Below, one piece after another: positions 50,328 through 64,000 of a stretch of DNA of 64,000 bases. This DNA is from Coriobacteriia bacterium (lineage in GTDB: Bacteria; Actinomycetota; Coriobacteriia; WRKU01; WQUG01), in contig WRFR01000003.1 of the NCBI GenBank assembly GCA_009778715.1, forward strand, positions 1 through 64,000. The letters are read 5' to 3'. The position numbers were made by a program, and so were the translations under genes. Below the pieces are notes generated by a model, which did no database searches, had not been told where the DNA came from, and was given only the letters and a program-made list of their open reading frames with translations. Positions within the stretch are counted from its first letter, which is position 1, and every line of letters starts with the position of its first letter.

Positions 50328-50404
<77 letters not shown>

Positions 50405-50413
50405 CAAAGCCGC

Positions 50414-50456
50414 AGGTCAGAGGATAAATTGAAAGCTTCTGGCCTGTTTTTATTTT
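50414..50456 (+). terminator. Terminator of tRNA-fMet
   Basis: AGGTCAGA (50414-50421) pairs with TCTGGCCT (50438-50445) with one G-T pair, followed by TTTTTATTTT. Confidence 0.65.
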
Positions 50457-50491
50457 GGGCAAAAATGCCCAGGTGGGCAATAAGTGGGCAA
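50456..50491. repeat. Clustered GGGCA repeats next to the attachment gene (candidate integrase arm sites)
   Basis: TGGGCA (50456-50461) and TGCCCA (50466-50471) form an inverted pair; two direct GTGGGCAA copies follow at 50473-50480 and 50484-50491, 11 bp apart, i.e. about one helical turn. Confidence 0.5.
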
Positions 50492-50512
50492 ACTTTGAAG
50501 GAAGAAGCACGG

Positions 50513-51094
50513 TTATTTGCTAACAACAGTCCCGAAGGGACTTATTAGCTTCAGGCCAATAAGAAGCGCAATCACTGTTGCAACAACAAACAAAGCAATA
50601 AGTACATTAGGCACCCATATCTCTCTTGATGTGAAAGAGCGATAGGTTTTGGGGTTTTCGCCGGACTCTAAAGCCTTCCACTCGGCAGCATAAATCGAAG
50701 CCTTAAGATGGCTTTCAAGCGTATTTATGACTTTAAACTTCCCCTTATTGAGCTGACCAAAAGAAATGATTAAGCTTCGCCACGCAAAGGAAAAAATTCC
50801 GCCGGTAATAGTGAGAAACGCCACACCGAACGCAGTAAGAGAAGTATCACCCGAACCTTTAACAAGTAAACCAATAGCAGTTAGTAAAGCACCATTCACA
50901 GTTAGAAAAAATGTATTGACGGTTTGTCTTCGAGCGACTAGATTCTCTGAACTTTCCACCATCATTTTATACAAATCAGTAATGCGCTGTTCATCTTCTT
51001 CCGGAGAAGGGGTGCCCATTGGGAATAATGTATCCAGGAAATCTTCTTCTGTTTTCTTGGTTAAGGTAGTAATGGTTTTTCGTTTCACCATCAT
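50513..51094 (-). CDS. Three-TM membrane protein, putative effector of the TIR module (SLATT/RipA-like)
   Basis: 193 aa. A charged cytosolic N-terminus (1-58) contains EEDEQRITDLYKMMVESSE and ARRQTVNTFFLTVNGALLTAIGLLV, reminiscent of SLATT or RipA-type small membrane proteins found beside bacterial immune genes. Helices at about 60-80, 88-106 and 161-183. No SLOG, SIR2 or macro domain is present, so it is not a standard ThsA. Two ATGs in tandem (51094, 51091) directly follow the stop of the TIR gene, implying coupling. Likely role: membrane disruption on receipt of a TIR-made nucleotide signal (inference). Confidence 0.55.
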   Translation of the reverse strand: MMVKRKTITTLTKKTEEDFLDTLFPMGTPSPEEDEQRITDLYKMMVESSENLVARRQTVNTFFLTVNGALLTAIGLLVKGSGDTSLTAFGVAFLTITGGIFSFAWRSLIISFGQLNKGKFKVINTLESHLKASIYAAEWKALESGENPKTYRSFTSREIWVPNVLIALFVVATVIALLIGLKLISPFGTVVSK

Positions 51095-51478
51095 CTACGT
51101 CCATCCAAAAAGCTTTTGAGTTATTAACGCGAAATCCCACCGGACAACATCTGAAGAAGATAGACCATTTGGGATAATATGCGTTTCATCACTATTGATC
51201 TGAATCCCAAAAAGGTAATGACCCTGCCTGGTTGTTTCAGCAATCTCCCATAATACTGCATCCGATTTCCATGTTGTCGCACCAATAAGAACGATGGTGC
51301 CCTTTGTGCGCGAAATTTTTTCAGAGCACTTTGTCTTCCATTGCGCATCGAAAGGATCCTTCACCGAATAGTCGTAAAACTCAATATCATTTCTTGAATC
51401 CTTCGCTTGTTGAGATAAGAAATCACGCGCCCAGCGATCCTCCATTTCAAAACTAATAAAAGCACGGGGTTGCGCCAT
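51095..51478 (-). CDS. Small TIR-like (MTH538/ThsB-type) protein 2
   Basis: 127 aa. AFISFEMEDRWARDFLSQQA, EFYDYSVKDPFDAQWKTKC, TIVLIGATTWKSDAVLWEIAE match the MTH538 TIR-like fold used by Thoeris ThsB sensors. E78 in LWEIAE sits where the NADase glutamate is expected. ThsB proteins detect phage and convert NAD to cyclic ADP-ribose-type signals; whether this one does is not shown. ATG 51478 follows AAAGGAA. Sits 30 bp after TIR protein 1 and abuts the membrane protein gene. Confidence 0.75.
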   Translation of the reverse strand: MAQPRAFISFEMEDRWARDFLSQQAKDSRNDIEFYDYSVKDPFDAQWKTKCSEKISRTKGTIVLIGATTWKSDAVLWEIAETTRQGHYLFGIQINSDETHIIPNGLSSSDVVRWDFALITQKLFGWT

Positions 51479-51508
51479 GAGAGTTCCTTTCGGTTACTGA
51501 ACTTAATA

Positions 51509-51883
51509 TCACCAAAGCTCCCTAATCGCAGCAACTATAGACTCAGTACTCCAATTGACTGTCTTGTCAGCGTCTTGGGCAGCAACTGAAATCCGTTCTG
51601 CACCATAGGGTCTTATTGCAAGAATAGGTTTATCATATTTCTTGGCCCATCCAATTTCCTTTTTGATTGAATCACTATATGATGCATATACTCCCGCAAT
51701 AAAGACAAACATGCTGCAATATTTAATAGCGCTTTCAACATCACTAAAGCTATCCCGCGGGTTACTCTTCGTGACCGAATAATCTGTGTATGAAAAGTTG
51801 CTCCTATTCTCAAGAAGCTTCATCAACCTGTCATAGTCATCTGAATAATTCCATGAATGGCTTACAAATATGTTTTTAGACAT
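51509..51883 (-). CDS. Small TIR-like (MTH538/ThsB-type) protein 1
   Basis: 124 aa from ATG 51883, which has GGAGGAAAGCT upstream; a longer start at 51904 lies on the wrong side of that site. NIFVSHSWNYSDDYDRLMKLL, YTDYSVTKSNP, MFVFIAGVYASYSDSIKKEIGWA and DKPILAIRPYGAE are typical of ThsB-like TIR domains. E76 in KKEIGWA is in the position of the catalytic glutamate. First gene of a three-gene minus-strand unit; a TATAAT box (51923-51928) lies 40 bp upstream. AT-rich relative to the chromosome. Confidence 0.78.
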   Translation of the reverse strand: MSKNIFVSHSWNYSDDYDRLMKLLENRSNFSYTDYSVTKSNPRDSFSDVESAIKYCSMFVFIAGVYASYSDSIKKEIGWAKKYDKPILAIRPYGAERISVAAQDADKTVNWSTESIVAAIRELW

Positions 51884-51922
51884 AGCTTTCCTCCAGAATT
51901 GCATCTGATTCTATTACCGTCC

Positions 51923-51928
51923 ATTATA
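51923..51928 (-). promoter_or_regulatory. -10 element of the TIR operon
   Basis: Perfect TATAAT on the minus strand (AGTATATAATGG), 40 bp before the first TIR start; -35 not convincing. Confidence 0.45.
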
Positions 51929-52038
51929 TACTTTCGCCAAGATAACAAGCTGTCATCGACTTTGCAGATGCGCCCAGATGGTTCGCCCCAGCATAGCTGG
52001 GTCAATAACACAAACGCTAATCTCTCCCACTTCACAGT

Positions 52039-52044
52039 TATAAT
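52039..52044 (+). promoter_or_regulatory. -10 element of the type III R-M operon
   Basis: Perfect TATAAT 31 bp before the mod ATG; no good -35 box seen. Confidence 0.4.
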
Positions 52045-52074
52045 GAATTAGTCACAATCGCTGAAGGAGAGTGG

Positions 52075-54200
52075 ATGTCAAAGCTCACGGATTTGATCGG
52101 GAGAGTAGCGCAGAAAGATCCTGCGCTTGCAGAGGAGTTGCGCAAGGAGTTCGCGGTCTATGCGAACCGGCGTGTCTTTGGTTTGAACTTTGAGCGGCAC
52201 ATGCCCGAAACTGTAAGACTTTATGATCGTCCGATCCGTCGCGGTGACAAGGTGAATATCCTCCCAGCACGAGGTGAAAAAGAGAAAGTTGAAAACAAGC
52301 GGATCTGGCTCGTCAAGTCGATTTTAGAAAAAGCTGAGGGTACGTTTGCCACGCTTGCGCCCGTCGGCGCAAATTTTGACCAGGAAGAGCCCCCCCCCCT
52401 CAGATTTCCGTTAATGATCTGGTAACTGTCGCTGCATTTTCAGAGCCAATCTACCCCGGCCTGCAGGAGACCGGGCGGGTTGAGCGTGGTGGGAATAAAC
52501 CTTACCAGGTGATCATCAATGGCGAGAACTTTCATGCCCTCGAAACGCTTCTCTATGCTTACGAAGGCAAGGTTGACTGCATCTATATTGACCCACCCTA
52601 TAACAAAGGGGCCAAAGATTGGAAGTACAATAACGACTTTGTTGACAGCGAGGATGCGTATCGCCATTCAAAATGGCTTGCATTTATTGAGCGACGGCTT
52701 AGGTTAGCAAAACGCCTGCTAAATCCGGAGAATTCAGTCTTGATAGTAACGATTGACGAAACGGAGTATCTGAGGCTTGGGCTTTTACTTGAACAAATTT
52801 TTACAAACGCGCAAATCCAAATGATAAGTTCTGTAATCAACCCGAGCGGTGCAAAAAGAGCCGGCTTGTTTTCGCGTTCTGATGAATACATTTTTATGGT
52901 TGTACTTGGTGCTGAAACCGTACAGTACTTTGCTGAGGGCGGAGACCCGAAGGAGAAGCGCTGGTGGTACCTGAGAAGAACTGACCTTTCTTCACGACGA
53001 GGCACAAAAAAGGGTGGCGTGCGCCAGTTTTATCCAATCTATGTCTCGCCTTTAACAAATAGGATAGTACATATCGGGGAAGCTCTTGCGCCGGGTGTTG
53101 ATCGGAGTAGTGTGCCAAGAGTAGAGGGTGCAGTGCCAGTCTTCCCTGTCAGAGAAGATGGGATAGAAATGAACTGGGGTTTAACAGCCCCGTCATTACA
53201 AAGACTATATGATTACGGCTTCGTGCGTGTGTCTCCTGGACATGATTACCAACCCTACATCTTCAAATATCTTTCTGAGGAGACGGTCGAGAAAGTTGAG
53301 AGTGGTGAGCTCTCAGTTATCGGCTCTCGTGAAGATGGATCCAAAATTGTTGTGTCTGATGAGGGGAAAATAATTAGGCCAACAACAGCTTGGAGTGTGT
53401 CCAGTCATGATGCCGGGCAATATGGAACCAGCCTATTGGGCGCGTTGATTCCCGGCCGCCGTTTTCCGTTTCCAAAATCGCTCTATGCGGTCGAGGACGC
53501 ATTACGGTATTTTATCGGGAAGAAACCTAGCGCGCTCATTGTTGATTTCTTCTCAGGTTCAGGAACGACTGCGCACGCAGTCATGCGGCTTAACCATCAT
53601 GACGGGGGACAACGCAGGTGCATCTGCATCACGAATAATGAAGTTTCAGCAGGGGAGCAAGAGATATTTCTCAAACAGATGCTTCGACCAAGTGATGATG
53701 AATGGAAAGCACTTGGCATCTGCGACTATATTACCAAGCCGCGTATCACTGCTGCCATTACTGGCAAAACACCAGAAGGCAATGATATCAAAGGTGACTA
53801 TTTGTTTACTGACGAGTTCTCAATGGTGGAAGGCTTCGAGGAGAACGCGATCTTCTATAACCTAACCTATCAGGATGAACTCAGCGTTGAGCTTGATCGC
53901 GCATTTGCTGAGATCGCTCCATTACTTTGGATGCGTGCTGGTTCGCAAGGCCGCTGCATTTCTGAACGCAAGGCAGACTTCGATATTGCTAAGAACTATG
54001 GCATTCTCTTTGACTACCATGCCGCCAACGCATTTCTTTCAGCATTGAGTAATAGCGCCGGCGTAAAGATAGCTTACATCGTCACTAACCAGGACTCCCG
54101 CTTTCAGGACATCGCTCAGAAGCTTCCAGAGGGCATCAAGTCGATCAGACTTTACGAGTCCTATATCCGTTCCTTCAAGATCAACCAGGGAGAGGCCTAG
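52075..54200 (+). pseudogene. mod: Type III DNA methyltransferase (Mod), frameshifted at a poly-C tract (possibly phase-variable)
   Basis: Two frames make one gene. The first (52075-52425) begins MSKLTDLIGRVAQKDPALAEE with AAGGAGAG upstream and covers the conserved Mod N-terminus; it stops soon after the C-tract. The second, in the +1 frame, continues QISVNDLVTVAAFSEPIYPGL, then RVERGGNKPYQVIINGENFHALE and the methyltransferase core. Motif IV is IYIDPPYNKGAKDW and motif I follows much later as VDFFSGSGTTAHAVM, i.e. a beta-class N6-adenine enzyme; the recognition domain lies between. With 10 C's the gene is off; 11 or 8 C's restore about 708 aa. An internal ATG at 52509 could make a shorter product. 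res follows by 5 bp. Confidence 0.85.
52390..52399 (+). repeat. Homopolymer tract of ten C in mod
   Basis: Ten C's between GAAGAG and TCAGATT, exactly where the reading frame of mod changes. In this state the frame ends 26 bp later at a TAA. Confidence 0.9.
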
Positions 54201-54205
54201 ATCAT

Positions 54206-56749
54206 ATGCGTTTCACGCTTAAAGACTTTCAGGAAGAAGCGGTCCGCACGCTCATGCAAAAGCTGCAAAGGGCAAAGCTTCTCTACTCGCAATCAGACGC
54301 GTCGGTAAGCCTGACGCTTTCCGCAACCACTGGGTCTGGCAAGACAGTCATGGCGTCGGCGGTAATCGAAAGCCTGTTCTTTGGTTCTGACCGCTACAAC
54401 TTCGATGCTGATCCAAGCGCCGTGGTGCTCTGGGTCACTGATGATCCCTCGCTCAACGAGCAAACGCGCTGGCGTTTCTATCAGTCTTCTGAGCTGATCG
54501 ACTTACCCCGCCTGGAAATCATCAATGACGGTTTCGACCAGGAAACCTTTGATCCGCAGAAGGTCTATTTCCTCAATCGGCAGAAGCTGGCAATCTCCTC
54601 AAATTTGGTTAAGCACAAGGATGATCGCGCTTTCACGCTTTGGGAGACGATTCAGAATACCATCGAGGACAGCAGCAGAACGCTTTACATGATCCTCGAT
54701 GAGGCGCACCGAGGGCTTAGGTCAGGGACGTCTGCCAGCGATGACTCCGCTCGCCAAAGCATCTATGCCCAGTTGATTGACGGCGCTGATGGCAGAAGCC
54801 CTATGCCGATTGTGCTGGGAATGTCTGCTACCATTGATCGATTCTCGGATGCAATGCAGTCGCGAAACCGTGAGCTACTGAGCGCCGTAACCGTTGACCC
54901 GAAAGACGTACAGGCTTCGGGGCTTCTGAAGGATACCATCACCTTGCTGATCCCTGATGAGCGTGGTTCTTTTGACGCGGTACTTCTTAAGGAAGCCTGT
55001 GCCGCTCTGCTGGAATCAAAGCACCACTGGGAGCAATACACTCTGGAGCAAAACCTGCCAGAAGCCGTAAATCCACTGATGGTGTTGCAGGTGCCAAACC
55101 TGGTTAGCGATGATGAACTGTTCTTACTTTGCGAGCAACTGACAGCAGCGATGCCTGGTCTCGATCCACATATCTCCTTTGGACACGTGCTGGGGGATCG
55201 TGGCGACATAATCATCGGCGGCACTAAGTATTTGATCCGCCATGTCTCGCCGCAAAACGTGCAGGACGATGTCTCCATCACGGTGCTGTTTGCCAAAGAA
55301 GCAGTCTCGACCGGTTGGGATTGCCCCCGTGCAGAAGTGTTGTTCTCGCTGCGCCCCGGACAGGATAAGACCTACATTGCTCAGTTGATAGGGCGTATGG
55401 TGCGCACTCCACTGGCGCGGCGTATCGACGGCAACGACATTCTCAACTCCGTATCTTGCTTCTTGCCACGCTTCAACAAGGCCACCACGCAGGAGGTTGC
55501 TCAATACCTGACCGGAGACCTCACCTTTGATGATTCGATCTCGCAGATGCCTGACCGCAAGGTGCTTACTTCGCCGGTCACCCTTGTTTGGGATGATGAT
55601 TTGGGCGAAGAGGTACGTGCTGCGTTTGAAACGCTACCGACCATGCTGGTGCCTCGCCCTATCGGAAACCAAGTTGACCGCTTATTGAACCTGACGGGCA
55701 AGTTGGCAGTATATGACATCGACACAAATGCTGATGCAGAAGCAAAGGCGTTTCTGATACGACTTATCAACTCTCAAAGAGTTTTGGCTGGCGACAAGTA
55801 CGATAGGGCTCTCCAGGAAGTTTACGCTGCTCGTACCTCAGTTACAACGGTGTCTCGCCTGACGGGCGATGCCAAAGTGTCCTCCAGCAGCGTGGCTGCC
55901 GACAGAGCGATTATTGAGGAAGGATTCGCGGCAGCCGGGCGCGCGCTGTGCCGTGAGGCAACCATTGAATATCTTAAGTATGTAGTTGACCATCAAGACG
56001 TTCCAGATGAACTGGATGCAAAAGCCGAAGTTGCCGCAGTTGCGCTTGTTCCCGAGATCCTCGATGAGATTAACGATTCGTGTAACGATTATGCAGTCAA
56101 CCTGTTCGCCACCTATCGAGATAAGATATATGGCCTTGATGATGCTGGCCGTGCTGCGTTTGATGAGGTACGTGCGCAAGCCATTGATCCGCAAGAGACT
56201 CTCATTGTTGTTCCGCAGACCGAGCTAGTCAACTCTTGCCAAGTAGTTGGTGAGAACAGTGAACCGTTGCCGTTGGTATCGAAACATGTGTTATCACTTG
56301 AGGATACGAAGCTCGTTCCTGTTAGCCTCAATGACATCGAATCCCGTGTTGTTGAAAAGGAGCTGGCACGTGACGACACTGTAGCTTGGTACCGCAACCC
56401 TTCTGGATCATCAAAGTCTGCCCTCCAAATTCCGTGGAAAGATGGGAGCAAGTGGCGAGCGATGCAGCCAGACTTCATCTTCTTCTCACGCATGGCGGGT
56501 GGAAGTATTAAGCCATCGATCATCGATCCACATGGCAGTTATCTCGGCGATGCCCTTGGCAAGCTGAAAGGCTTTGCAGCCTACGCAGAGCAATACGGAG
56601 CCGCTTTCAAGCGTCTGGAATCAGTCGATACGGTGGATGGGAAAGACTTCTTCCTTGATCTGAAAGACGCAGCTGCCCGAGAGGCGATTCTACAGAATAA
56701 TTCTGAGAATGCGGCCAGCATTTATCGCGAACTAGGAAAAGCGTATTAA
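54206..56749 (+). CDS. res: Type III restriction subunit / DEAD-box helicase (Res)
   Basis: 847 aa. Superfamily 2 helicase: FTLKDFQEEAVRTLM, Walker A ATTGSGKT (41-48), LWVTDDPSLNEQT, Walker B LILDEAH equivalent MILDEAHRGL, GMSATI, and motif VI QLIGRMVRTPLARRI. The C-terminal part has QPDFIFFSRMAGGSIKPSIIDPHG, a region where related Res proteins carry the nuclease fold, though the lysine of PD-(D/E)xK is not obvious to me. Cuts DNA in an ATP-dependent way when bound to Mod. With Mod off, Res should be inactive, which avoids self-damage. Overlaps the convergent membrane gene by 4 bp. Confidence 0.85.
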   Translation: MRFTLKDFQEEAVRTLMQKLQRAKLLYSQSDASVSLTLSATTGSGKTVMASAVIESLFFGSDRYNFDADPSAVVLWVTDDPSLNEQTRWRFYQSSELIDLPRLEIINDGFDQETFDPQKVYFLNRQKLAISSNLVKHKDDRAFTLWETIQNTIEDSSRTLYMILDEAHRGLRSGTSASDDSARQSIYAQLIDGADGRSPMPIVLGMSATIDRFSDAMQSRNRELLSAVTVDPKDVQASGLLKDTITLLIPDERGSFDAVLLKEACAALLESKHHWEQYTLEQNLPEAVNPLMVLQVPNLVSDDELFLLCEQLTAAMPGLDPHISFGHVLGDRGDIIIGGTKYLIRHVSPQNVQDDVSITVLFAKEAVSTGWDCPRAEVLFSLRPGQDKTYIAQLIGRMVRTPLARRIDGNDILNSVSCFLPRFNKATTQEVAQYLTGDLTFDDSISQMPDRKVLTSPVTLVWDDDLGEEVRAAFETLPTMLVPRPIGNQVDRLLNLTGKLAVYDIDTNADAEAKAFLIRLINSQRVLAGDKYDRALQEVYAARTSVTTVSRLTGDAKVSSSSVAADRAIIEEGFAAAGRALCREATIEYLKYVVDHQDVPDELDAKAEVAAVALVPEILDEINDSCNDYAVNLFATYRDKIYGLDDAGRAAFDEVRAQAIDPQETLIVVPQTELVNSCQVVGENSEPLPLVSKHVLSLEDTKLVPVSLNDIESRVVEKELARDDTVAWYRNPSGSSKSALQIPWKDGSKWRAMQPDFIFFSRMAGGSIKPSIIDPHGSYLGDALGKLKGFAAYAEQYGAAFKRLESVDTVDGKDFFLDLKDAAAREAILQNNSENAASIYRELGKAY

Positions 56750-57258
56750 ACGTTTTCGTTTGCATCATCTTTGCTATTAGCATTTAGCTTTACTGCTTTA
56801 CGTTCAGCATGCATCCGCTTAATCTCTTGCCAAAGATCTTTTACCATGAAGATGATCATCAAAATAGTCAGTATTCCAGCTAGTACAAGACAAAGAATAA
56901 CAAGCCAGAGAATATCCTTCTCAGTGTTTGTGCGCACCCCCAACACCGCAAATGCATACGCAAGAAATACAAAGATTAGAATCCCGGATAGAAGGGCTGT
57001 AATTGAAGAATTTGGATTACTATTTGAAAATTCAAGCACCTTCCTATCAATTCTACTTTTTAGTTTCTTTCGAGTTTCTGGCGATAATTCTGAGCCCATA
57101 TCGAGATAGATTTTAACTTCAGACAACAATCGATTCCGCCCTATCCAGAACCCAAGAGCAGCGATAATGCCAGAAGAAACTGCAGCCACAATTGCAGCCC
57201 AAAAAACTCCACTGGTTGCAACTCCCGAAACTAACCCTGCTGTTGCTGTTGTTTCCAT
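56746..57258 (-). CDS. Small membrane protein of unknown function
   Basis: 170 aa from ATG 57258 (GGAG upstream; an earlier in-frame start gives nine extra residues). Hydrophobic helices at about 12-40, 86-108 and 116-140; the middle segment LSPETRKKLKSRIDRKVLEF is basic and cytosolic, as is the C-terminus. No family recognised. Its size and place beside R-M and DUF2513 genes suggest an accessory or defence role, which is a guess. 54 bp downstream of the DUF2513 gene on the same strand. Confidence 0.5.
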   Translation of the reverse strand: METTATAGLVSGVATSGVFWAAIVAAVSSGIIAALGFWIGRNRLLSEVKIYLDMGSELSPETRKKLKSRIDRKVLEFSNSNPNSSITALLSGILIFVFLAYAFAVLGVRTNTEKDILWLVILCLVLAGILTILMIIFMVKDLWQEIKRMHAERKAVKLNANSKDDANENV

Positions 57259-57312
57259 AAATCGCAATCTCCTACCACGCATCAAACTTGCCTGAAATCA
57301 TTATCGTCTAAG

Positions 57313-57684
57313 CTAGTGTTTAGAGGTGAGCCCCCGTACTGCGCCACTCACTGCAGCTTCTAATGTCGCAAGAAGAACCGTCGCCAATGCGCCGGAGAAT
57401 TTTTCTTTCACTCTATGCCAAGCAGTATCATCTCTTAACGCATCAAGAAAACTATGGCCGCTGGGAGTAAGTTTGATACTACTTATTCTAATGGTCCTCC
57501 CGCCCTGATGGCCACCGAGAGACTTACCCTCAATGTAGCCCTCCCCAATGAGTTGTTCCAAATTGTAGATGAGCGCATCATGATCTGTCTCCAAAGATTT
57601 GAAATCAGAGTCTTGAAAGCTTGGCTTTTCACATTGCTCCATATAAAGCAAAATATTCCTCATCAAGTCTATGTTGCGTTCCAT
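57313..57684 (-). CDS. DUF2513-family protein (winged-helix-like)
   Basis: 123 aa. MERNIDLMRNILLYMEQ, NLEQLIGEGYIEG and IRISSIKLTPSGHSFLDALRDD match the DUF2513 pattern, small wHTH-like proteins common on phages and islands. The last 30 residues (ALATVLLATLEAAVSGAVRGL) are an extra amphipathic or hydrophobic tail. Function unknown; could regulate the membrane gene downstream. Nothing recognisable lies in the 223 bp between it and the relaxase gene except degenerate CGACCAT repeats near 57888-57910. Confidence 0.7.
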   Translation of the reverse strand: MERNIDLMRNILLYMEQCEKPSFQDSDFKSLETDHDALIYNLEQLIGEGYIEGKSLGGHQGGRTIRISSIKLTPSGHSFLDALRDDTAWHRVKEKFSGALATVLLATLEAAVSGAVRGLTSKH

Positions 57685-57907
57685 CTTATTCCTCCATCTG
57701 TTTGCGTGATTGCCAAAACATCAATATCTCTATGTGTTACATTCTAGCAAGCCTGTGCCATTAGCAAGGCCATTACAGTCACCAGCCATCGGAGCATATC
57801 CACGTTCCACCTGCAGTTATGAGGGTTATCCCCAGTTTTCACTACTTCTTTTCCAAGAAGTAATCCTTATGCGAACGCACCGACCATCATCGACCATACT
57901 CGACCCA

Positions 57908-59155
57908 TTATCGCCCCCGGTCTCTATTCTGCATACGCTCTTTCGACTGCGACGTGAAACCCTCGATACGTTCATCCAAGTCAAACTCGCGTTCTGCAAT
58001 AGCTTCGCAATCGCGGACTTTGAGGCGGAGTTCTTTCAGCTCGTAGCCAATGTCTTTGAGGCACTGCTTGGCTTCGGCTTGTTTCTCGGGGTCACTGGTT
58101 TTGGCAGCTACTTTGTAGAGATGATTACGCTCTTTGATGATCGGCGGGATCTTCTGTTGCTGTTTGAATTTGAATTCCAGGAGCTTCGTGAGGGTGTCGA
58201 GTAGGTTTTCTGCGAGCAATTCGAGTTGGCGCAGGATCGTTTCTATCGTCGCGATCTCAGCACGTAGTTCGGGAGCGAGCAGCTTCATGGGGATCGCTGA
58301 GTAAGCGGTTATTAGCAGGGCATAGTGGTAGTGCTGGCGGATCAGGCCTTGGTGGGGATATTCGCTCACTTTCTGGTTGATCTGGCGCAGGGTCTCGGGC
58401 GATAGCGTTTGGCGTGGGTCTCCAGGAGCGCCTTGGCGGGAGTTGGCTGAAAGCTGGCGCAGAATGTTTGCTGTTGAGTACTGTTCGCCGAAGTGGCGGG
58501 CGGGGCGCATGAAGCGCTCGCGGCCGGCGGCCTTAATGCTGAGTTCTTTTCCTGGTTTAATCTCGTAGCCCATCTGTTGCAGGTGGCGGACGAAATCCTT
58601 TTGGCTGCGGGAACAGTTGACGGCGTAGTTGATGTCGAGGCGAACGAGTTCCTTGGCGGTTGGCTTGCCGTCGCGGGAATCTTTCCAGTCGGCGTAGGTC
58701 TTGGTCTTTTCCTGGGCAGGCTTCTTGATGACACTGAGCTGGTACTCGTGGCAGAGCCGGTCGCTGGCTTCGCGGAATGCGCGGTAGGCTGCCTTGTTGT
58801 GGTTGTAGCGATAGCCGTCGGTATGCGATACCGAGTTCCACATGAAGTGGTTGTGAATGTGATTCTCGTGATCAGTGTGCGTTGAGACCAGCACCTGGAA
58901 TCTGCGACCTAGCACGCGCTCGGCGAGTTTGACGCCGATCTCGTGGGCAGCCTCGGCGTTTACCTCGCCTTCGGCAAACGATTGGTAGGCATGGTAAGCG
59001 GTGATGCCGCCGGGCTTTCCGTACTGCGCCTTAACTGCCTCCATCTCCATCACGGCGGTTTCCGGTAGGCAGTTAACGCCGGTGACGAGAATGCCACCGG
59101 CGGTCTTGTCGGGATTGGTGATGTAGCTGACGAGCTTGGGTAGCGGTCCTGTCAC
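57908..59155 (-). CDS. Relaxase / mobilisation nuclease (MobA/VirD2 type)
   Basis: 415 aa. LPKLVSYITNPDKTAGGILVTGVNC at the start, YHAYQSFAEGEVNAEAAHEIG, and the metal-binding HENHIHNHFMWNSV are hallmark blocks of the MOBP relaxase domain; YRFREASDRLCHEYQLSVI-like text follows (FREASDRLCHEYQLSVI). The expected catalytic Tyr is probably Y10 in VSYITNP. The C-terminal half is helical with coiled-coil character. It nicks oriT to start conjugal transfer. GTG 59155 overlaps the MobC-like stop (GTGA). Confidence 0.85.
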   Translation of the reverse strand: MTGPLPKLVSYITNPDKTAGGILVTGVNCLPETAVMEMEAVKAQYGKPGGITAYHAYQSFAEGEVNAEAAHEIGVKLAERVLGRRFQVLVSTHTDHENHIHNHFMWNSVSHTDGYRYNHNKAAYRAFREASDRLCHEYQLSVIKKPAQEKTKTYADWKDSRDGKPTAKELVRLDINYAVNCSRSQKDFVRHLQQMGYEIKPGKELSIKAAGRERFMRPARHFGEQYSTANILRQLSANSRQGAPGDPRQTLSPETLRQINQKVSEYPHQGLIRQHYHYALLITAYSAIPMKLLAPELRAEIATIETILRQLELLAENLLDTLTKLLEFKFKQQQKIPPIIKERNHLYKVAAKTSDPEKQAEAKQCLKDIGYELKELRLKVRDCEAIAEREFDLDERIEGFTSQSKERMQNRDRGR

Positions 59156-59265
59156 CTTCCGACATAGGCGGAGCGCGTCAACTGCGAGCGCCGCGCCATC
59201 GTGTCGAGATGACGCAGCTCCCGGGGATTGAGGCGGATGCTGATCTGGGATTCACGCGCTCTCAT
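59152..59265 (-). CDS. Minimal MobC-like ribbon-helix-helix peptide
   Basis: 37 aa, too short for most gene finders. ATG 59265 has a perfect GGAGG at the right distance. The sequence (ISIRLNPRELRHLDTMARRS, then SRSAYVGR-like LTRSAYVGR) is the ribbon-helix-helix half of MobC relaxosome proteins; the remaining C-terminal part of normal MobC (about 60-100 aa) is missing. It probably binds oriT with the relaxase, and its stop overlaps the relaxase start. Confidence 0.65.
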   Translation of the reverse strand: MRARESQISIRLNPRELRHLDTMARRSQLTRSAYVGR

Positions 59266-59284
59266 GAGTATGCCTCCTTCCTAG

Positions 59285-59369
59285 ATTCCGGCTCGGAGGC
59301 CGGAATGACGGGCTGGGTAGGATGACCAGGCTAGTGGATTGCCACGTCGCTTCGCTCCTCGTAATGACA
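59285..59369. repeat. Two REP-like intergenic repeat units
   Basis: ATTCCGGC-TCGGAG-GCCGGAAT hairpin (59285-59306) followed by TGACG, then an ATTGCCACG...CGTAATGACA unit (59338-59369) of the widespread ATTGC...GCAATGAC type. The first is an inverted relative of the element at 14648-14712. Confidence 0.6.
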
Positions 59370-59382
59370 ATGTGGGTGCGGT

Positions 59383-59462
59383 CCCCAACGTATGTTGGGG
59401 TGGAACCAGGCGCGGCAGCGGCCTGGCAAGCGGGTAAGGATAGCCGAATCCATTGCTTGCCA
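59383..59462. other. Candidate oriT region
   Basis: Lies upstream of the mobC-like/relaxase genes. Holds a perfect CCCCAAC-GTAT-GTTGGGG hairpin (59383-59400) and an 8-bp inverted repeat TGGCAAGC (59424-59431)/GCTTGCCA (59455-59462). Position and repeats fit an origin of transfer; no nick site identified. The rest of 59266-59546 holds no gene. Confidence 0.4.
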
Positions 59463-59546
59463 GAACATTTCCCGGAGTCTGCGCTGCTGGGGATTCCACC
59501 GTCCGAAAAGGGGCAGCGCCCGCCTCCGGCGCGTCCCGCTCTCTTG

Positions 59547-59798
59547 TTAGCGCAATACATTCATGCGGCCTTTCTGCTTCAGGTAGCTGACCAGCTTGCG
59601 CTCGTTGATGAGCAGCTTCTTGGAGCCGATGCGCATGCACACATCCGGCGGCAACTGCCCCGCCCACTTATAGGCGGTGGTGCGCCCGATGCCGAAGTGC
59701 TCCTGAAGCTCGGCTATCGTGATCCACGCGCATGGCGCGTCGCTGGGGCGCTGCGCCGTCTGGCTTTCGGGAGCGGTCTGTTGGGTGGTTATGGTCAC
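59547..59798 (-). CDS. Excisionase-like helix-turn-helix protein
   Basis: 83 aa. GTG 59798 follows AGGAGACACGA. The core AWITIAELQEHFGIGRTTAYKWAGQLPPDVCMRIG (split here for length) is a MerR/AlpA-type winged helix of the excisionase family (HTH_17). LINERKLVSYLKQKGRM is the C-terminal helix. Such proteins steer integrase towards excision or regulate mobilisation genes. It lies between the mobilisation genes and the divergent zinc-ribbon gene. Confidence 0.75.
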   Translation of the reverse strand: MTITTQQTAPESQTAQRPSDAPCAWITIAELQEHFGIGRTTAYKWAGQLPPDVCMRIGSKKLLINERKLVSYLKQKGRMNVLR

Positions 59799-59833
59799 TC
59801 GTGTCTCCTGTCTTCTCGTTGTTTCTGCGATTG

Positions 59834-59873
59834 ACTGGTATCAGGTTCTCATGTTCAGATATACTGGTACAGG
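59834..59873. promoter_or_regulatory. Direct repeats in the divergent xis/zinc-ribbon region
   Basis: ACTGGTATCAGG (from 59834) and ACTGGTACAGG (59863-59873) lie 29 bp apart, upstream of both divergent genes; possible operator. Confidence 0.35.
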
Positions 59874-59927
59874 CATTATTTACAGTATATTATGTAATTC
59901 TTTTCACGGCGGTTTCAGGAGGTTTTA

Positions 59928-61139
59928 ATGCGTTATATGTTTGATCCGAGGACAGGGCGAGTGCGCGGCGCCTTTGAAGTGAACTATGACTTCGAGGGTG
60001 AAGAACTTGAGGATGGCAACTTCGAGACCGATCTTCTGGCATTCAGGTATGCTAAGGAGCAGGATCGCCGGGGGCCTGTCGCCGACCGCACGCAGCTCTA
60101 CATCGACTTCGCCAACATCGCGTGGCCGCCTTCGCTGCCCCTGCTGGAAGAGAGCTACACCGTCTTTGATAAGCGCATTGCTTTCCAGCTTCCTCAGCCG
60201 GATGAAACTACCTGCGATGAGAATCGCCTCTGTGAGTTCGCCGAAGCTTACGGCCCTCTCTTCGGCGTCTTCGACGAGGGGGTCGGACATATCACCCCGG
60301 AGAAAATCCTGGAGCCAGAGAGCTGCTGGTATGATGCTGCCAAAACGCTGAGCCTAGCCGTCCGTATCCAGGCTTACCTCGCCGGACGCGCCAAAGCCAG
60401 CGACCTCGACGACGCGATTCACTTCATCTTACACTCCGGATCCGGCGATAAGGACTTCTACTGGGAGTGCGCCAGCTTCTATCCCAGCGATCTTGATCGT
60501 CCATACTGGGACATGCTTGAACTGTCCGAAGAAGAACAGGGGCGGCTGTTCCTGCCCGCAAGCGAGGCGGCTTGGCCTGGCCTGACGTTTCTGACTCGCT
60601 TCGACCCCCGTGGCCCTGGCAAGTGGAATCACTCAACCCTGGGCGTCTCCGCAATCCCTGATAAGCTGACCGGGCGCACCGTCCCCTATGCCTACACCAC
60701 GTTCAGCTACCTGGCGAGCAAACCAGAGACCGAGAACCTCGCCCGCGTCCTTGCCGGCCACCTCCTGCGCGGACTCGTGTTGCTGCACACTCACCGCGTC
60801 CACCACGACCTGCTCGACGGCTTCTTTGGCGTGGTCTACAACAATCTACTTGAACGCCTCTGGATGGACTTCGCCGCCGATGCCGCTCTCGGCAAGCTGG
60901 GCGTCTGCGCCCAGTGCGGCAAGGTCTTCGAGGCCCTCTCAGAGCGCCGCGACGTTAAGCGCTACTGCTCAGTCACCTGCCAAGCCAACGCCAAGTCCAC
61001 CCGCCAATACCGCCGCCGCAAAATCCGCCAGCTGGCAGAGGAGCTGGGCAGGAAGCCAACCCTGGAGGAGGTGCAGAACGCCGGTTGGAATTTCGTAGCC
61101 ACCGAAGAGCTGATCGATGCGGCACTGGAGAAATCGTAA
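59928..61139 (+). CDS. Unknown protein with C-terminal CGNR-like zinc ribbon
   Basis: 403 aa; ATG has a perfect AGGAGG at ideal spacing. Residues 1-320 show no motif I know: acidic, mixed alpha/beta, with EESYTVFDKRIAFQLPQPDE and LLRGLVLLHTHRVHHDLLDG. Near the end CAQCGKVFEAL-x7-KRYCSVTCQANAK is a four-cysteine zinc ribbon followed by a basic RQYRRRKIRQLAEELG helix, like CGNR-type DNA-binding fingers. Probably a DNA- or RNA-binding regulator of the element. It is GC-rich, unlike the TIR genes. A large palindrome (61257-61292) follows. Confidence 0.6.
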   Translation: MRYMFDPRTGRVRGAFEVNYDFEGEELEDGNFETDLLAFRYAKEQDRRGPVADRTQLYIDFANIAWPPSLPLLEESYTVFDKRIAFQLPQPDETTCDENRLCEFAEAYGPLFGVFDEGVGHITPEKILEPESCWYDAAKTLSLAVRIQAYLAGRAKASDLDDAIHFILHSGSGDKDFYWECASFYPSDLDRPYWDMLELSEEEQGRLFLPASEAAWPGLTFLTRFDPRGPGKWNHSTLGVSAIPDKLTGRTVPYAYTTFSYLASKPETENLARVLAGHLLRGLVLLHTHRVHHDLLDGFFGVVYNNLLERLWMDFAADAALGKLGVCAQCGKVFEALSERRDVKRYCSVTCQANAKSTRQYRRRKIRQLAEELGRKPTLEEVQNAGWNFVATEELIDAALEKS

Positions 61140-61256
61140 GATTTACACCGACATCTTCACCGACATTTACACCGTCACCTCATGCCAGGACCTCACATAT
61201 TGCCCTAAGCAGCCACCCTGAGCTATTCGGAAACCCCGAACAGGTGCTTTCGCTCG

Positions 61257-61292
61257 TGTCAAAAGGTTGACATAAGTGTTAACCTTTTGACA
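61257..61292. other. 16-bp inverted repeat between the zinc-ribbon and AbiE operons
   Basis: TGTCAAAAGGTTGACA and TGTTAACCTTTTGACA around a TAAG spacer, one mismatch. It sits between convergent genes, so it may be a bidirectional terminator, but each arm begins TGTCAAAAG exactly like the AbiE operators at 63006-63092. Confidence 0.6.
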
Positions 61293-61298
61293 TCCCAA

Positions 61299-61643
61299 CT
61301 AACCGAAAAAGCAGCAGAACTGGTCTTCTTTCACAACCTGCACCAAGTCTTCTAGACACGGTGTTGTCTCAGCAAGATCGTAACTATGCCACTTCAAATC
61401 TGCTCGCATCCAGTAAAGCTCCCATTCGTCGCGAGATCGAGTGTACCTGAACCGCGCAACACCAAGGTGAGTCCAGTCGCCCACACCTTTCCAGGGAGGA
61501 CGGTTCTCCCATATGGTGACCGCATGGCCATCAACCTCATAAGTAAAAGTCAACTGATCGGAAAGCTCCGGCGGAGAAATCGACTCACAATATCCTCCAA
61601 CCGTTTTCTTGATTTGTGCCAATTCGAGTTCACTGAATGCCAT
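61299..61643 (-). CDS. DUF3024-family protein, third gene of the AbiE operon
   Basis: 114 aa. AFSELELAQIKKTVGGYCE, a hydrophobic strand LTFTYEVDGHAVTIWENRPPW, and VARFRYTRSRDEWELYWMRADLKWH match the DUF3024 pattern, a small cytosolic family of unknown function. It starts 3 bp after the abiEii stop, so it is co-expressed with the toxin; a role in modulating it is possible but unproven. CCFFG terminus. Confidence 0.7.
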   Translation of the reverse strand: MAFSELELAQIKKTVGGYCESISPPELSDQLTFTYEVDGHAVTIWENRPPWKGVGDWTHLGVARFRYTRSRDEWELYWMRADLKWHSYDLAETTPCLEDLVQVVKEDQFCCFFG

Positions 61644-61646
61644 GAC

Positions 61647-62477
61647 CTATTCCGCCTTATCAATCGTAGCGATAAACTCATTAACCCACATCACAGCTTC
61701 GTCTACAGTGCTAAGTACTTCCAATCCATCAGCTTGCTCATTGTAAAGGGACTCCCACCCTTCACTCTTTACAACAACAGGAGGCCACGTTTGCTTCCTC
61801 CGCAAGTCGAAGAGTCGCTGGCAGGTGTCTTTCACCAGCCTATAATCAATAGTTTCTCTTTTGGCTATCAGCTGCAGGTCAACCAGATCATGAGCACGCT
61901 CGCTACCTTCATCACTCAACCCATGGAGCTTCTGGGCTATCTGGTGATGAATTGGCATGAGCGCCACCGGTTCAGGCGCGGGAAAACCAAGCTGCTCAAA
62001 GATAGCAACGATTTCTGGCGAGATCGAATACTCGGGATCGTCTGTATCGCCAACCTCATCATGACCAACTTCAAGCTGCACCGTTAACCAAGGCGTGCCG
62101 TTATAGGCCATCTTAATATCAAAGGGCTGCATGATGTACTCAGCAGGAACGTTCATTGGCTTTGGCGGCTGCAAGCGAACAACTCTGCCAGTAAACCCAT
62201 TCCAGCCTTCTGCCAAAGCTGTGTCAAGTTCCTGGATAAACACCTCCAGATCTTCCGCTCTTACTGCATCAAGATCACGAGTGAACCGCGTTGCGCTGTC
62301 TCCATATCGGAATTTAAGCGAAGTACCTCCCTTAATGGCCCCCTTGGGCAGAAGCTGTCCGACTACGGTATTCGCGATTGTCTTTCTCGCGCGCGAAAAT
62401 GGTTCGCCTCTGCCGAACAATCGTGCAATGGCTTCATCAAGATTGCGTCTGCTATTTGGTGGTGTTTTTTCTGGCAC
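61647..62477 (-). CDS. abiEii: AbiEii-type nucleotidyltransferase toxin
   Basis: 276 aa. Nucleotidyltransferase motif GGTSLKFRYGDSATRFTRDLD carries the GG(T)S and the DxD-equivalent residues; FDIKMAYNGTPW and HHQIAQKLHGLSDEGSERAHDLVDL are later AbiEii blocks. AbiEii inhibits growth during phage infection by modifying tRNA or other RNA ends in characterised relatives. GTG 62477 has AAGGAG upstream and overlaps the antitoxin gene by 26 bp, as is normal for the pair. Confidence 0.88.
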   Translation of the reverse strand: MPEKTPPNSRRNLDEAIARLFGRGEPFSRARKTIANTVVGQLLPKGAIKGGTSLKFRYGDSATRFTRDLDAVRAEDLEVFIQELDTALAEGWNGFTGRVVRLQPPKPMNVPAEYIMQPFDIKMAYNGTPWLTVQLEVGHDEVGDTDDPEYSISPEIVAIFEQLGFPAPEPVALMPIHHQIAQKLHGLSDEGSERAHDLVDLQLIAKRETIDYRLVKDTCQRLFDLRRKQTWPPVVVKSEGWESLYNEQADGLEVLSTVDEAVMWVNEFIATIDKAE

Positions 62478-63003
62478 CTTTGATCTCCTTTGTTAGTTCC
62501 TTTGCTTCCTTCTCAGACACTAGGCCTTGTATTCGCGCATCTTCAATAGCTGGAAGTAGCCGCTCGGTCATCACCGTCGTTTGGCTAGTTCTGAAAGCAT
62601 CCGCAACGCTTTGCGATGGAACGCCAGAGTAACGAGTCACTTCAGTACCAGCTTTTGCTGGCACCACTGCGATATAAGATGGCAACTTCTTTCTGAGCCT
62701 TGCCGGAGTTGCAATCTTTACTTTTCTGGGATTCACTAAGGCAAGGTCAAACATCGCCAGAACCGATTCCCCGTAGATATAGGCATCGCTTCCGACTAAG
62801 GCTGCCGCCTCGGCGTATCTATCAAGCTCCGTTGGCACATAATGTGTAAGTCGATATACCCCGTGTCCGGCACGAATTAGTTTTCCGCGTCTGGCTATCT
62901 TCACTAAGTCGGCATTAGGCACACCCAGAGCACGCGCCTCAGTAGCAGTAATAAGACCGTTGTTGTCAACAGCTTGTTCATATATGCGATCATAGTACGT
63001 CAT
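62452..63003 (-). CDS. abiEi: AbiEi-type antitoxin and autorepressor
   Basis: 183 aa from ATG 63003. The N-terminal winged helix (DRIYEQAVDNNGLITATEAR, DLVKIARRGKLIRAGHGVYRL) binds DNA; the C-terminal part (SQSVADAFRTSQTTVMTERL) is typical AbiEi. No ribosome site is seen, but a TTGACA...CATACT promoter places transcription at or next to this ATG, so the mRNA may be leaderless. Upstream in-frame ATGs to 63129 would lie inside the operators. AbiEi proteins repress their own promoter by binding inverted repeats; two such repeats sit directly upstream. Confidence 0.85.
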   Translation of the reverse strand: MTYYDRIYEQAVDNNGLITATEARALGVPNADLVKIARRGKLIRAGHGVYRLTHYVPTELDRYAEAAALVGSDAYIYGESVLAMFDLALVNPRKVKIATPARLRKKLPSYIAVVPAKAGTEVTRYSGVPSQSVADAFRTSQTTVMTERLLPAIEDARIQGLVSEKEAKELTKEIKGARKNTTK

Positions 63004-63005
63004 GT

Positions 63006-63035
63006 CAAAAGTATGCCATTTATGGCATACTTTTG
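63006..63035. promoter_or_regulatory. AbiEi operator 1: perfect 30-bp palindrome
   Basis: CAAAAGTATGCCAT-TT-ATGGCATACTTTTG, 14-bp perfect arms, immediately upstream of the abiEi start and covering the -10 element and the edge of the -35. Confidence 0.8.
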
Positions 63036-63039
63036 TCAA
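63010..63039 (-). promoter_or_regulatory. abiE promoter
   Basis: Minus strand TTGACA (63034-63039), 18-bp spacer, CATACT (63010-63015); the start point would fall on or beside the ATG at 63003. Confidence 0.6.
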
Positions 63040-63062
63040 CTCCGCGATGAAGGCATACCTGT

Positions 63063-63092
63063 CAAAACTATACCGTTTATGGCATACTTTTG
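63063..63092. promoter_or_regulatory. AbiEi operator 2: imperfect copy of the palindrome
   Basis: CAAAACTATACCGT-TT-ATGGCATACTTTTG; right arm identical to operator 1, left arm with three changes. Centres of the two operators are 57 bp apart. A TATAGT -10-like box lies within it on the minus strand. Confidence 0.7.
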
Positions 63093-63115
63093 ACACTGCA
63101 CACATCTGTATCTGG

Positions 63116-64000
63116 CTACTTGCCGTCATCCTTTCTAAATATCACACCACCGATAGTGTCAGCGGCGTCGCGGTCGTTAGCGGCTATGGCGTGGGCATAA
63201 ATGTCCATCGTCAGGCTGGCGGTAGAGTGGCCGAGGCGGTGCTGGACGGTCTTGATGTCGGCGCCGTTACCGATGAGAAGAGTGGCTTGGGTATGGCGCA
63301 GCTCGTGAAAGTTGTAGCCGTGGTAGCCGCTGCGTTTGACGTGGCGTGTGCCACTGGGGTCGGTGTAGATCTCCTCATGCTCGAAGTAGCCAAGACCGAT
63401 GTCGGCGAAGAAGTCGCGGCGCCAGCGGGAGAAGTTGTTGGGATCGCTGATAGCTCCCAGCTCGTTGGTGGCGAGCGGGGTTGCTGGTGTTTGCTCCAGG
63501 CCCATCGCCTCCAGCTCTTCGCGCTGCTTTTGCTTCCAGCGGCTGAGGAACTCGACTGTTTCGTCATCGATACCGATCCAGCGGTGAGAGTTCTCGCTCT
63601 TGGGCTCACGGAAAGTCATGTCGTTGGCAAGCTGCTGGGCGATGTAGATGCGCTTGTTGTCCAGATCAACATGCTTCCAGGTAAGCCCCAGCGCTTCCCC
63701 GCGCCGGATACCCGTTGCCAGTCCCAGCCACATGGCCACCACTCTGCCAGACTGCTCTTCCTTGCGCAGTGCATCGGCGAGTTTCATGGCGTCTTCGATC
63801 TGCAGGCTGCGGCGTTCCCTGGACTTTGGTCGGGAGAGCTGGATGAGGTCACAGGGATTGCGGACGATGATTTCTTCGAGCACCGCCTGTTTGAGGACCT
63901 GCCGGAGCTTGGCGTGTATCTTGTGGAGCTGACTGCGAGATACGTTACTGTCAGCGCGCAGTTTGGCGTAAGTCTCGTTGAGCATCCCGGTGGTGAGCTT
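63116..64000 (-). CDS. int: Tyrosine-type integrase (N-terminus outside window)
   Basis: The frame is open to the right edge (KLTTG precedes the ATG at 63985), so the arm-binding domain is missing. Visible: core-binding helices (SRSQLHKIHAKLRQVLKQAV), then catalytic R in TGIRRGEALGL, K in FREPKSENSHRW, H-x2-R in FHELRHTQATLL, H in RLGHSTASLTMDIYAH with the nucleophile Tyr. A YTDPSGTRHVKRSGYHGYN insertion precedes the HxxR box. It should catalyse integration at tRNA-fMet. Lies at the far end of the element from the tRNA, as expected if the second att site is just beyond 64000. Confidence 0.9.
   Translation of the reverse strand, partial: KLTTGMLNETYAKLRADSNVSRSQLHKIHAKLRQVLKQAVLEEIIVRNPCDLIQLSRPKSRERRSLQIEDAMKLADALRKEEQSGRVVAMWLGLATGIRRGEALGLTWKHVDLDNKRIYIAQQLANDMTFREPKSENSHRWIGIDDETVEFLSRWKQKQREELEAMGLEQTPATPLATNELGAISDPNNFSRWRRDFFADIGLGYFEHEEIYTDPSGTRHVKRSGYHGYNFHELRHTQATLLIGNGADIKTVQHRLGHSTASLTMDIYAHAIAANDRDAADTIGGVIFRKDDGK

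Follow-up and report, generated by a model that had tools for sequence, protein, structure and literature searches.

We found that the mod gene of a type III restriction-modification operon, carried by an island in tRNA-Met of a Coriobacteriia bacterium, is broken between two reading frames at a tract of ten C's, and this gene is best explained, with considerable confidence for a sequence-based prediction, as a slipped-strand ON/OFF switch. The window is a 64,000-nucleotide stretch (assembly GCA_009778715.1, contig WRFR01000003.1, positions 1 to 64,000), and positions refer to it unless a contig is named. Support comes from the frame break at the C10 tract, the intact halves and partner gene, the G/C tracts in other mod genes of the class, the differences in length and frame between orthologous tracts, and the lack of detectable MutL or NucS.

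The mod gene (52075–54200, plus strand) spans two frames. Its 5' part (52075–52425) starts at an ATG at 52075, which is preceded by the Shine-Dalgarno sequence AAGGAG, and runs for 116 codons before a stop at 52423–52425. The 3' part (52380–54200) lies in another frame and comprises 606 open codons with a stop at 54198–54200. Only 43 nt (52380–52422) are open in both frames, and the frame change necessarily lies inside this overlap, which contains the C10 homopolymer (52390–52399), the presumed slippage site. The split at ten C's described in the initial annotation is thus confined to a short segment holding the tract. By arithmetic, the frames are joined whenever the tract has 3n+2 C's: 708 codons result from 11 C's, as the initial annotation had claimed, but 707 from 8 C's, for which it had claimed the same product. 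The repeat length, as read from the sequence, thereby decides between full-length and truncated Mod. A promoter scan 5' of mod returned scores no better than those of shuffled sequences.

The tract is exceptional in its surroundings. C10 is the sole G/C run longer than 6 in the window and the sole one longer than 7 within 464 kb sampled from the genome, where the next longest is 7; about 0.1–0.35 runs of at least 10 are expected by chance per whole 1.73-Mb genome. Within the protein, the site corresponds to a variable linker directly ahead of the conserved segment 'DLVVVAEF'.

Both halves of mod have the features expected of one enzyme, as had been noted initially. A single PADLOC MTase_III profile, PDLC03645, covers both: its positions 1–82 align with the 5' part (E 2e-24) and its positions 107–709 with the 3' part (E 4e-202), so that the latter reaches the profile end. 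The 3' part forms the N6/N4 methyltransferase domain (PF01555, E 1e-18), and both catalytic motifs are intact, DPPY at 52590–52601 and FFSGSGTT (FxGxG) at 53547–53570. The beta-class methyltransferase motifs and the matches to the type III model identify the gene as a type III mod. Moreover, no second stop or frameshift was found in the roughly 708 codons of mod, and the adjacent res gene is likewise without a lesion. This integrity of mod, its motifs and res argues against plain inactivation, in which a fixed frameshift would be turning mod into a pseudogene; the assembled tract does leave mod out of frame, and loss is common among restriction genes of mobile islands, yet we consider this explanation very improbable.

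Downstream, res (54206–56749, plus strand) begins 6 nt past mod and encodes an intact protein of 847 aa with a Walker A motif (54326–54346), a DEAH box (54698–54709) and a QPDF...IDPHG segment (56465–56536). The helicase domain matches PF04851 (E 1e-14). Where the nuclease motif PD-(D/E)xK would be expected, Res has PDF...IDPHG instead. A Res homologue is present in 79 of the 80 loci of relatives that we compared, and DPHG-type motifs gave 64 matches among these loci; from this distribution, the motif is read as a marker of this Res subfamily. The operon resembles type III systems of the EcoP1I/EcoP15I type in its Mod with DPPY before FxGxG, its DEAH helicase Res and its adjacent genes, but those enzymes carry PD...(D/E)xK in Res, whereas the Res studied here has PDF...DPHG.

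Type III Res requires Mod both for recognition and for cutting. In the proposed mechanism, slipped-strand mispairing at C10 would move Mod between the full-length form (3n+2 C's) and a 116-residue stub. With the assembled C10, translation from the normal start would meet a stop 23 nt past the tract, the methylase domain would remain untranslated, and the system would be OFF. Given this dependence of Res on Mod, switching OFF would be safe for the entire system: OFF cells would lose methylation and restriction together, without self-restriction. Additionally, an internal GTG at 52509 could serve as the start of a shortened Mod with both catalytic motifs. Strict OFF is the more likely outcome, because the ribosome-binding site of this GTG looks poor. 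We infer that switching occurs within this species, that methylation is lost when the system is OFF and that the cell benefits. Bet-hedging in phage defence and a methylation-controlled regulon are candidates for the benefit, and both fit equally well. A phase-variable mod does not imply a phasevarion, that is, a switched methylome that regulates genes.

To place the tract among homologues, we compared 80 genomes whose mod is 49–58% identical to that of the window, 79 of them outside Coriobacteriia. A single open frame crosses the spot equivalent to C10 in about 78 of the 80 (the exceptions are loci L043 and L057), and none of the 79 mod genes from outside the class contains a G/C run of at least 8. 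Judging from these genes, C10 is a feature of this genome's own mod and not of its outside relatives. The comparison also bears on a sequencing or assembly miscount, in which the true number of C's would be in frame and mod stably ON. Homopolymers are prone to error, this draft assembly has 48 contigs, and some of its G/C tracts are located at contig ends. However, a miscount by one or two C's would leave a slippage-prone site for which no comparable C-tract exists in the 79 outside relatives. Moreover, long frames are intact around 51 of 64 sampled G/C runs of 6–7, so homopolymers do not generally break frames in this assembly, and like breaks occur in two independent genomes of the class (G106 and G304, below). 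We therefore regard a miscount as very improbable.

The class was identified as Coriobacteriia from one of its members, G050, whose locus is identical to the one in Collinsella sp. An7. Within Coriobacteriia, mod is present in 15 of 400 genomes, and its 5' part is readable in 13, the window included. Six of these 13 genes, from three families, have a G/C run of 9–11 within the 5' third or directly ahead of it, with the reservation that the assemblies of the tract-bearing genes may hold miscounts of their own. Besides the out-of-frame C10 of the window genome, G106 has a G10 that is out of frame (98 + 631 codons), while G166 and G247 share its site and carry a G9 that is in frame. In G304, from another family, a G9 near codon 139 is out of frame (149 + 638 codons). 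In G026, a G11 lies just 5' of the ATG, within the ribosome-binding region. Fisher's test of the class mod genes against the 79 outside relatives gave p 2e-6, uncorrected for kinship, and p 1e-4 when the related trio of G106, G166 and G247 was counted once, which allows for kinship only so far. This comparison, which drew on other species of the class with one genome per species, yielded homologues with G9, G10 and G11 tracts, and where orthologues share a tract site, its length and frame vary among them.

The flanks of the tract in G106 diverge by about 7–12% from those in G166 and G247, while the tract is kept and its length is 10 in the former and 9 in the latter two, the pattern that would be expected of a maintained, length-variable switch. 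That homologues have kept such tracts while their species diverged also speaks against inactivation of the window gene. Similarly, orthologue tracts of 9, 9 and 10, in and out of frame, are what DNA slippage predicts, and they argue against recoding, in which -1 ribosomal frameshifting or transcriptional slippage would yield some full-length Mod from a constant C10. The required shift is indeed -1, and C CCC CCC, as read from the sequence, has the formal pattern of a slippery heptamer, but the frame relation at a recoding site should stay constant, and other runs of such size occur in unrelated genes and in intergenic DNA. Recoding accordingly appears to be the least probable of the alternatives.

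Searches for further members of these groups were negative. The mod gene is absent from the eight other members of the window genome's own family; no G106-type orthologue was found in G106's genus beyond the three, and no new mod in G106's family. The window tract with its flanks had no match in viral contigs. A search of viral contigs for the G106 tract pattern returned only unrelated chance matches, which were rejected. Separately, at loci L119, L120 and L121 (G247, G166 and G238, respectively), which belong to three class genomes of two families, mod consists of two ORFs that part around profile position 271–300, suggesting a natural two-subunit form.

The operon lies on a mobilizable island of about 14.3 kb in tRNA-Met, which occupies 50328–64000 of the window and extends to position 64682 of contig C3. 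The tRNA-Met gene (50328–50404, plus strand) is the attachment site, and an exact copy of 49 bp from its 3' half lies at C3 64634–64682, beside a gene for a tyrosine-recombinase-like integrase (63116–64000 and on to about C3 64454, minus strand). The island is recognized by this repeat together with the integrase-like gene, whose family was assigned by reading of the sequence and not by a profile. In addition to the integrase-like gene and the type III operon, the island carries a MobA/VirD2-type relaxase gene (57908–59155, minus strand), two TIR-like genes, an 8xMP gene and AbiE-type genes. Beside mod, at 50513–51904 on the minus strand, the two TIR genes, which are adjacent and of the ThsB type, and the 8xMP membrane-protein gene possibly form a further, TIR-based defence cluster. 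Three 36-nt palindromic repeats (TGTCAAAAG...CTTTTGACA) surround the AbiE-type genes at 61257–63095 and are probable operators.

Long G/C runs also occur elsewhere in this genome. Nine runs of at least 9 were counted, against about 0.9–1.8 expected, although the position of several of the nine at the ends of contigs makes these less reliable. One of them, a G11 at position 41224 of contig C9 (locus L141, 5198–6575), breaks a 449-codon membrane-protein gene eight codons past an ATG with the Shine-Dalgarno sequence AGGAAGG. Judging from the N-termini of paralogues, the frame 3' of this G11 seems to need an extension of about such a length, and the tract is likely to be another on/off switch. The initial proposal of a phase-variable mod thus gains support from this second broken gene as well as from the G9, G10 and G11 tracts of class mod genes and the differences in length and frame between orthologues. 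Furthermore, a gene at a contig end that exceeds 1600 codons and encodes a secreted Rhs-type protein has a C16 at its N-terminal end, and a G11 is located 5' of a YfhO gene. G/C runs at the ends of contigs C13 and C34 look like assembly ends and were excluded as evidence. Runs of exactly 8 were given no weight as switches, as about 6–9 are expected by chance; such runs are also found in a TagF-like gene and in genes for secreted proteins.

At the level of the class, runs of at least 9 are present in 277 of 300 genomes and exceed 100 in some, these being raw counts that include GC-rich genomes. In G006, a member of the same family (loci L231–L240), we observed many intergenic G/C runs of 11–12, some of which are directly before start codons or 5' of surface-protein genes. 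Whether Coriobacteriia use long poly-G/C tracts as class-wide contingency switches of surface genes and type III methylases, with the tracts in mod arising independently in several families, is a question on which we see the chances as even.

The repair capacity of the class is compatible with frequent slippage. MutL was detected in none of 60 class genomes but in 11 of 14 controls; for NucS, the same number of class genomes gave no convincing match and five weak partial matches, while 7 controls were positive. These results agree with a previous report that all analysed Coriobacteriia are without NucS and MutS-MutL (PMC5290159). Because the class is without both known mismatch-repair systems, slippage should be frequent, and the missing repair may lie behind the frequent long G/C tracts.

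Switches of this kind, and phasevarions governed by them, are known from other type III mod genes. Simple repeats occur in 17.4% of the type III mod genes in REBASE (PMC7394358). The window gene resembles the phase-variable modA, modB, modD, modH, modM and modS in that a simple repeat inside the gene sets the frame of the methylase domain, but it differs from them in its Coriobacteriia host without known mismatch repair, its assignment to the PDLC03645 subgroup and its C10 mononucleotide tract. Within the phylum, the sortase pili of Bifidobacterium breve (bbr_0113, bbr_1889) are controlled by a G10/G11 tract that splits the gene and by slippage that joins it, as followed by maximum-depth sequencing (PMC9187656). 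The likeness lies in an actinobacterial gene split at a G/C tract, with slippage predicted in the present case; the difference is that the B. breve switch acts on pilus genes in another class of the phylum, whereas here a methylase gene is affected. The initial statement that such poly-C control is unfamiliar for a bacterium of this type consequently holds for Coriobacteriia in the literature searched, but not more broadly, given the G-tract switches of B. breve. That literature, which left out the main survey of type III mod genes, yielded no report of phase variation in Coriobacteriia, and a poly-C mod switch is apparently undescribed for this class.

If the proposed switch is true, populations would be mixed for restriction and DNA methylation in a class from which phase variation is not known. 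Such mixed populations would affect phage susceptibility, gene uptake and possibly gene expression. Moreover, the absence of mismatch repair would offer a simple, testable reason for the frequent long G/C tracts in Coriobacteriia.
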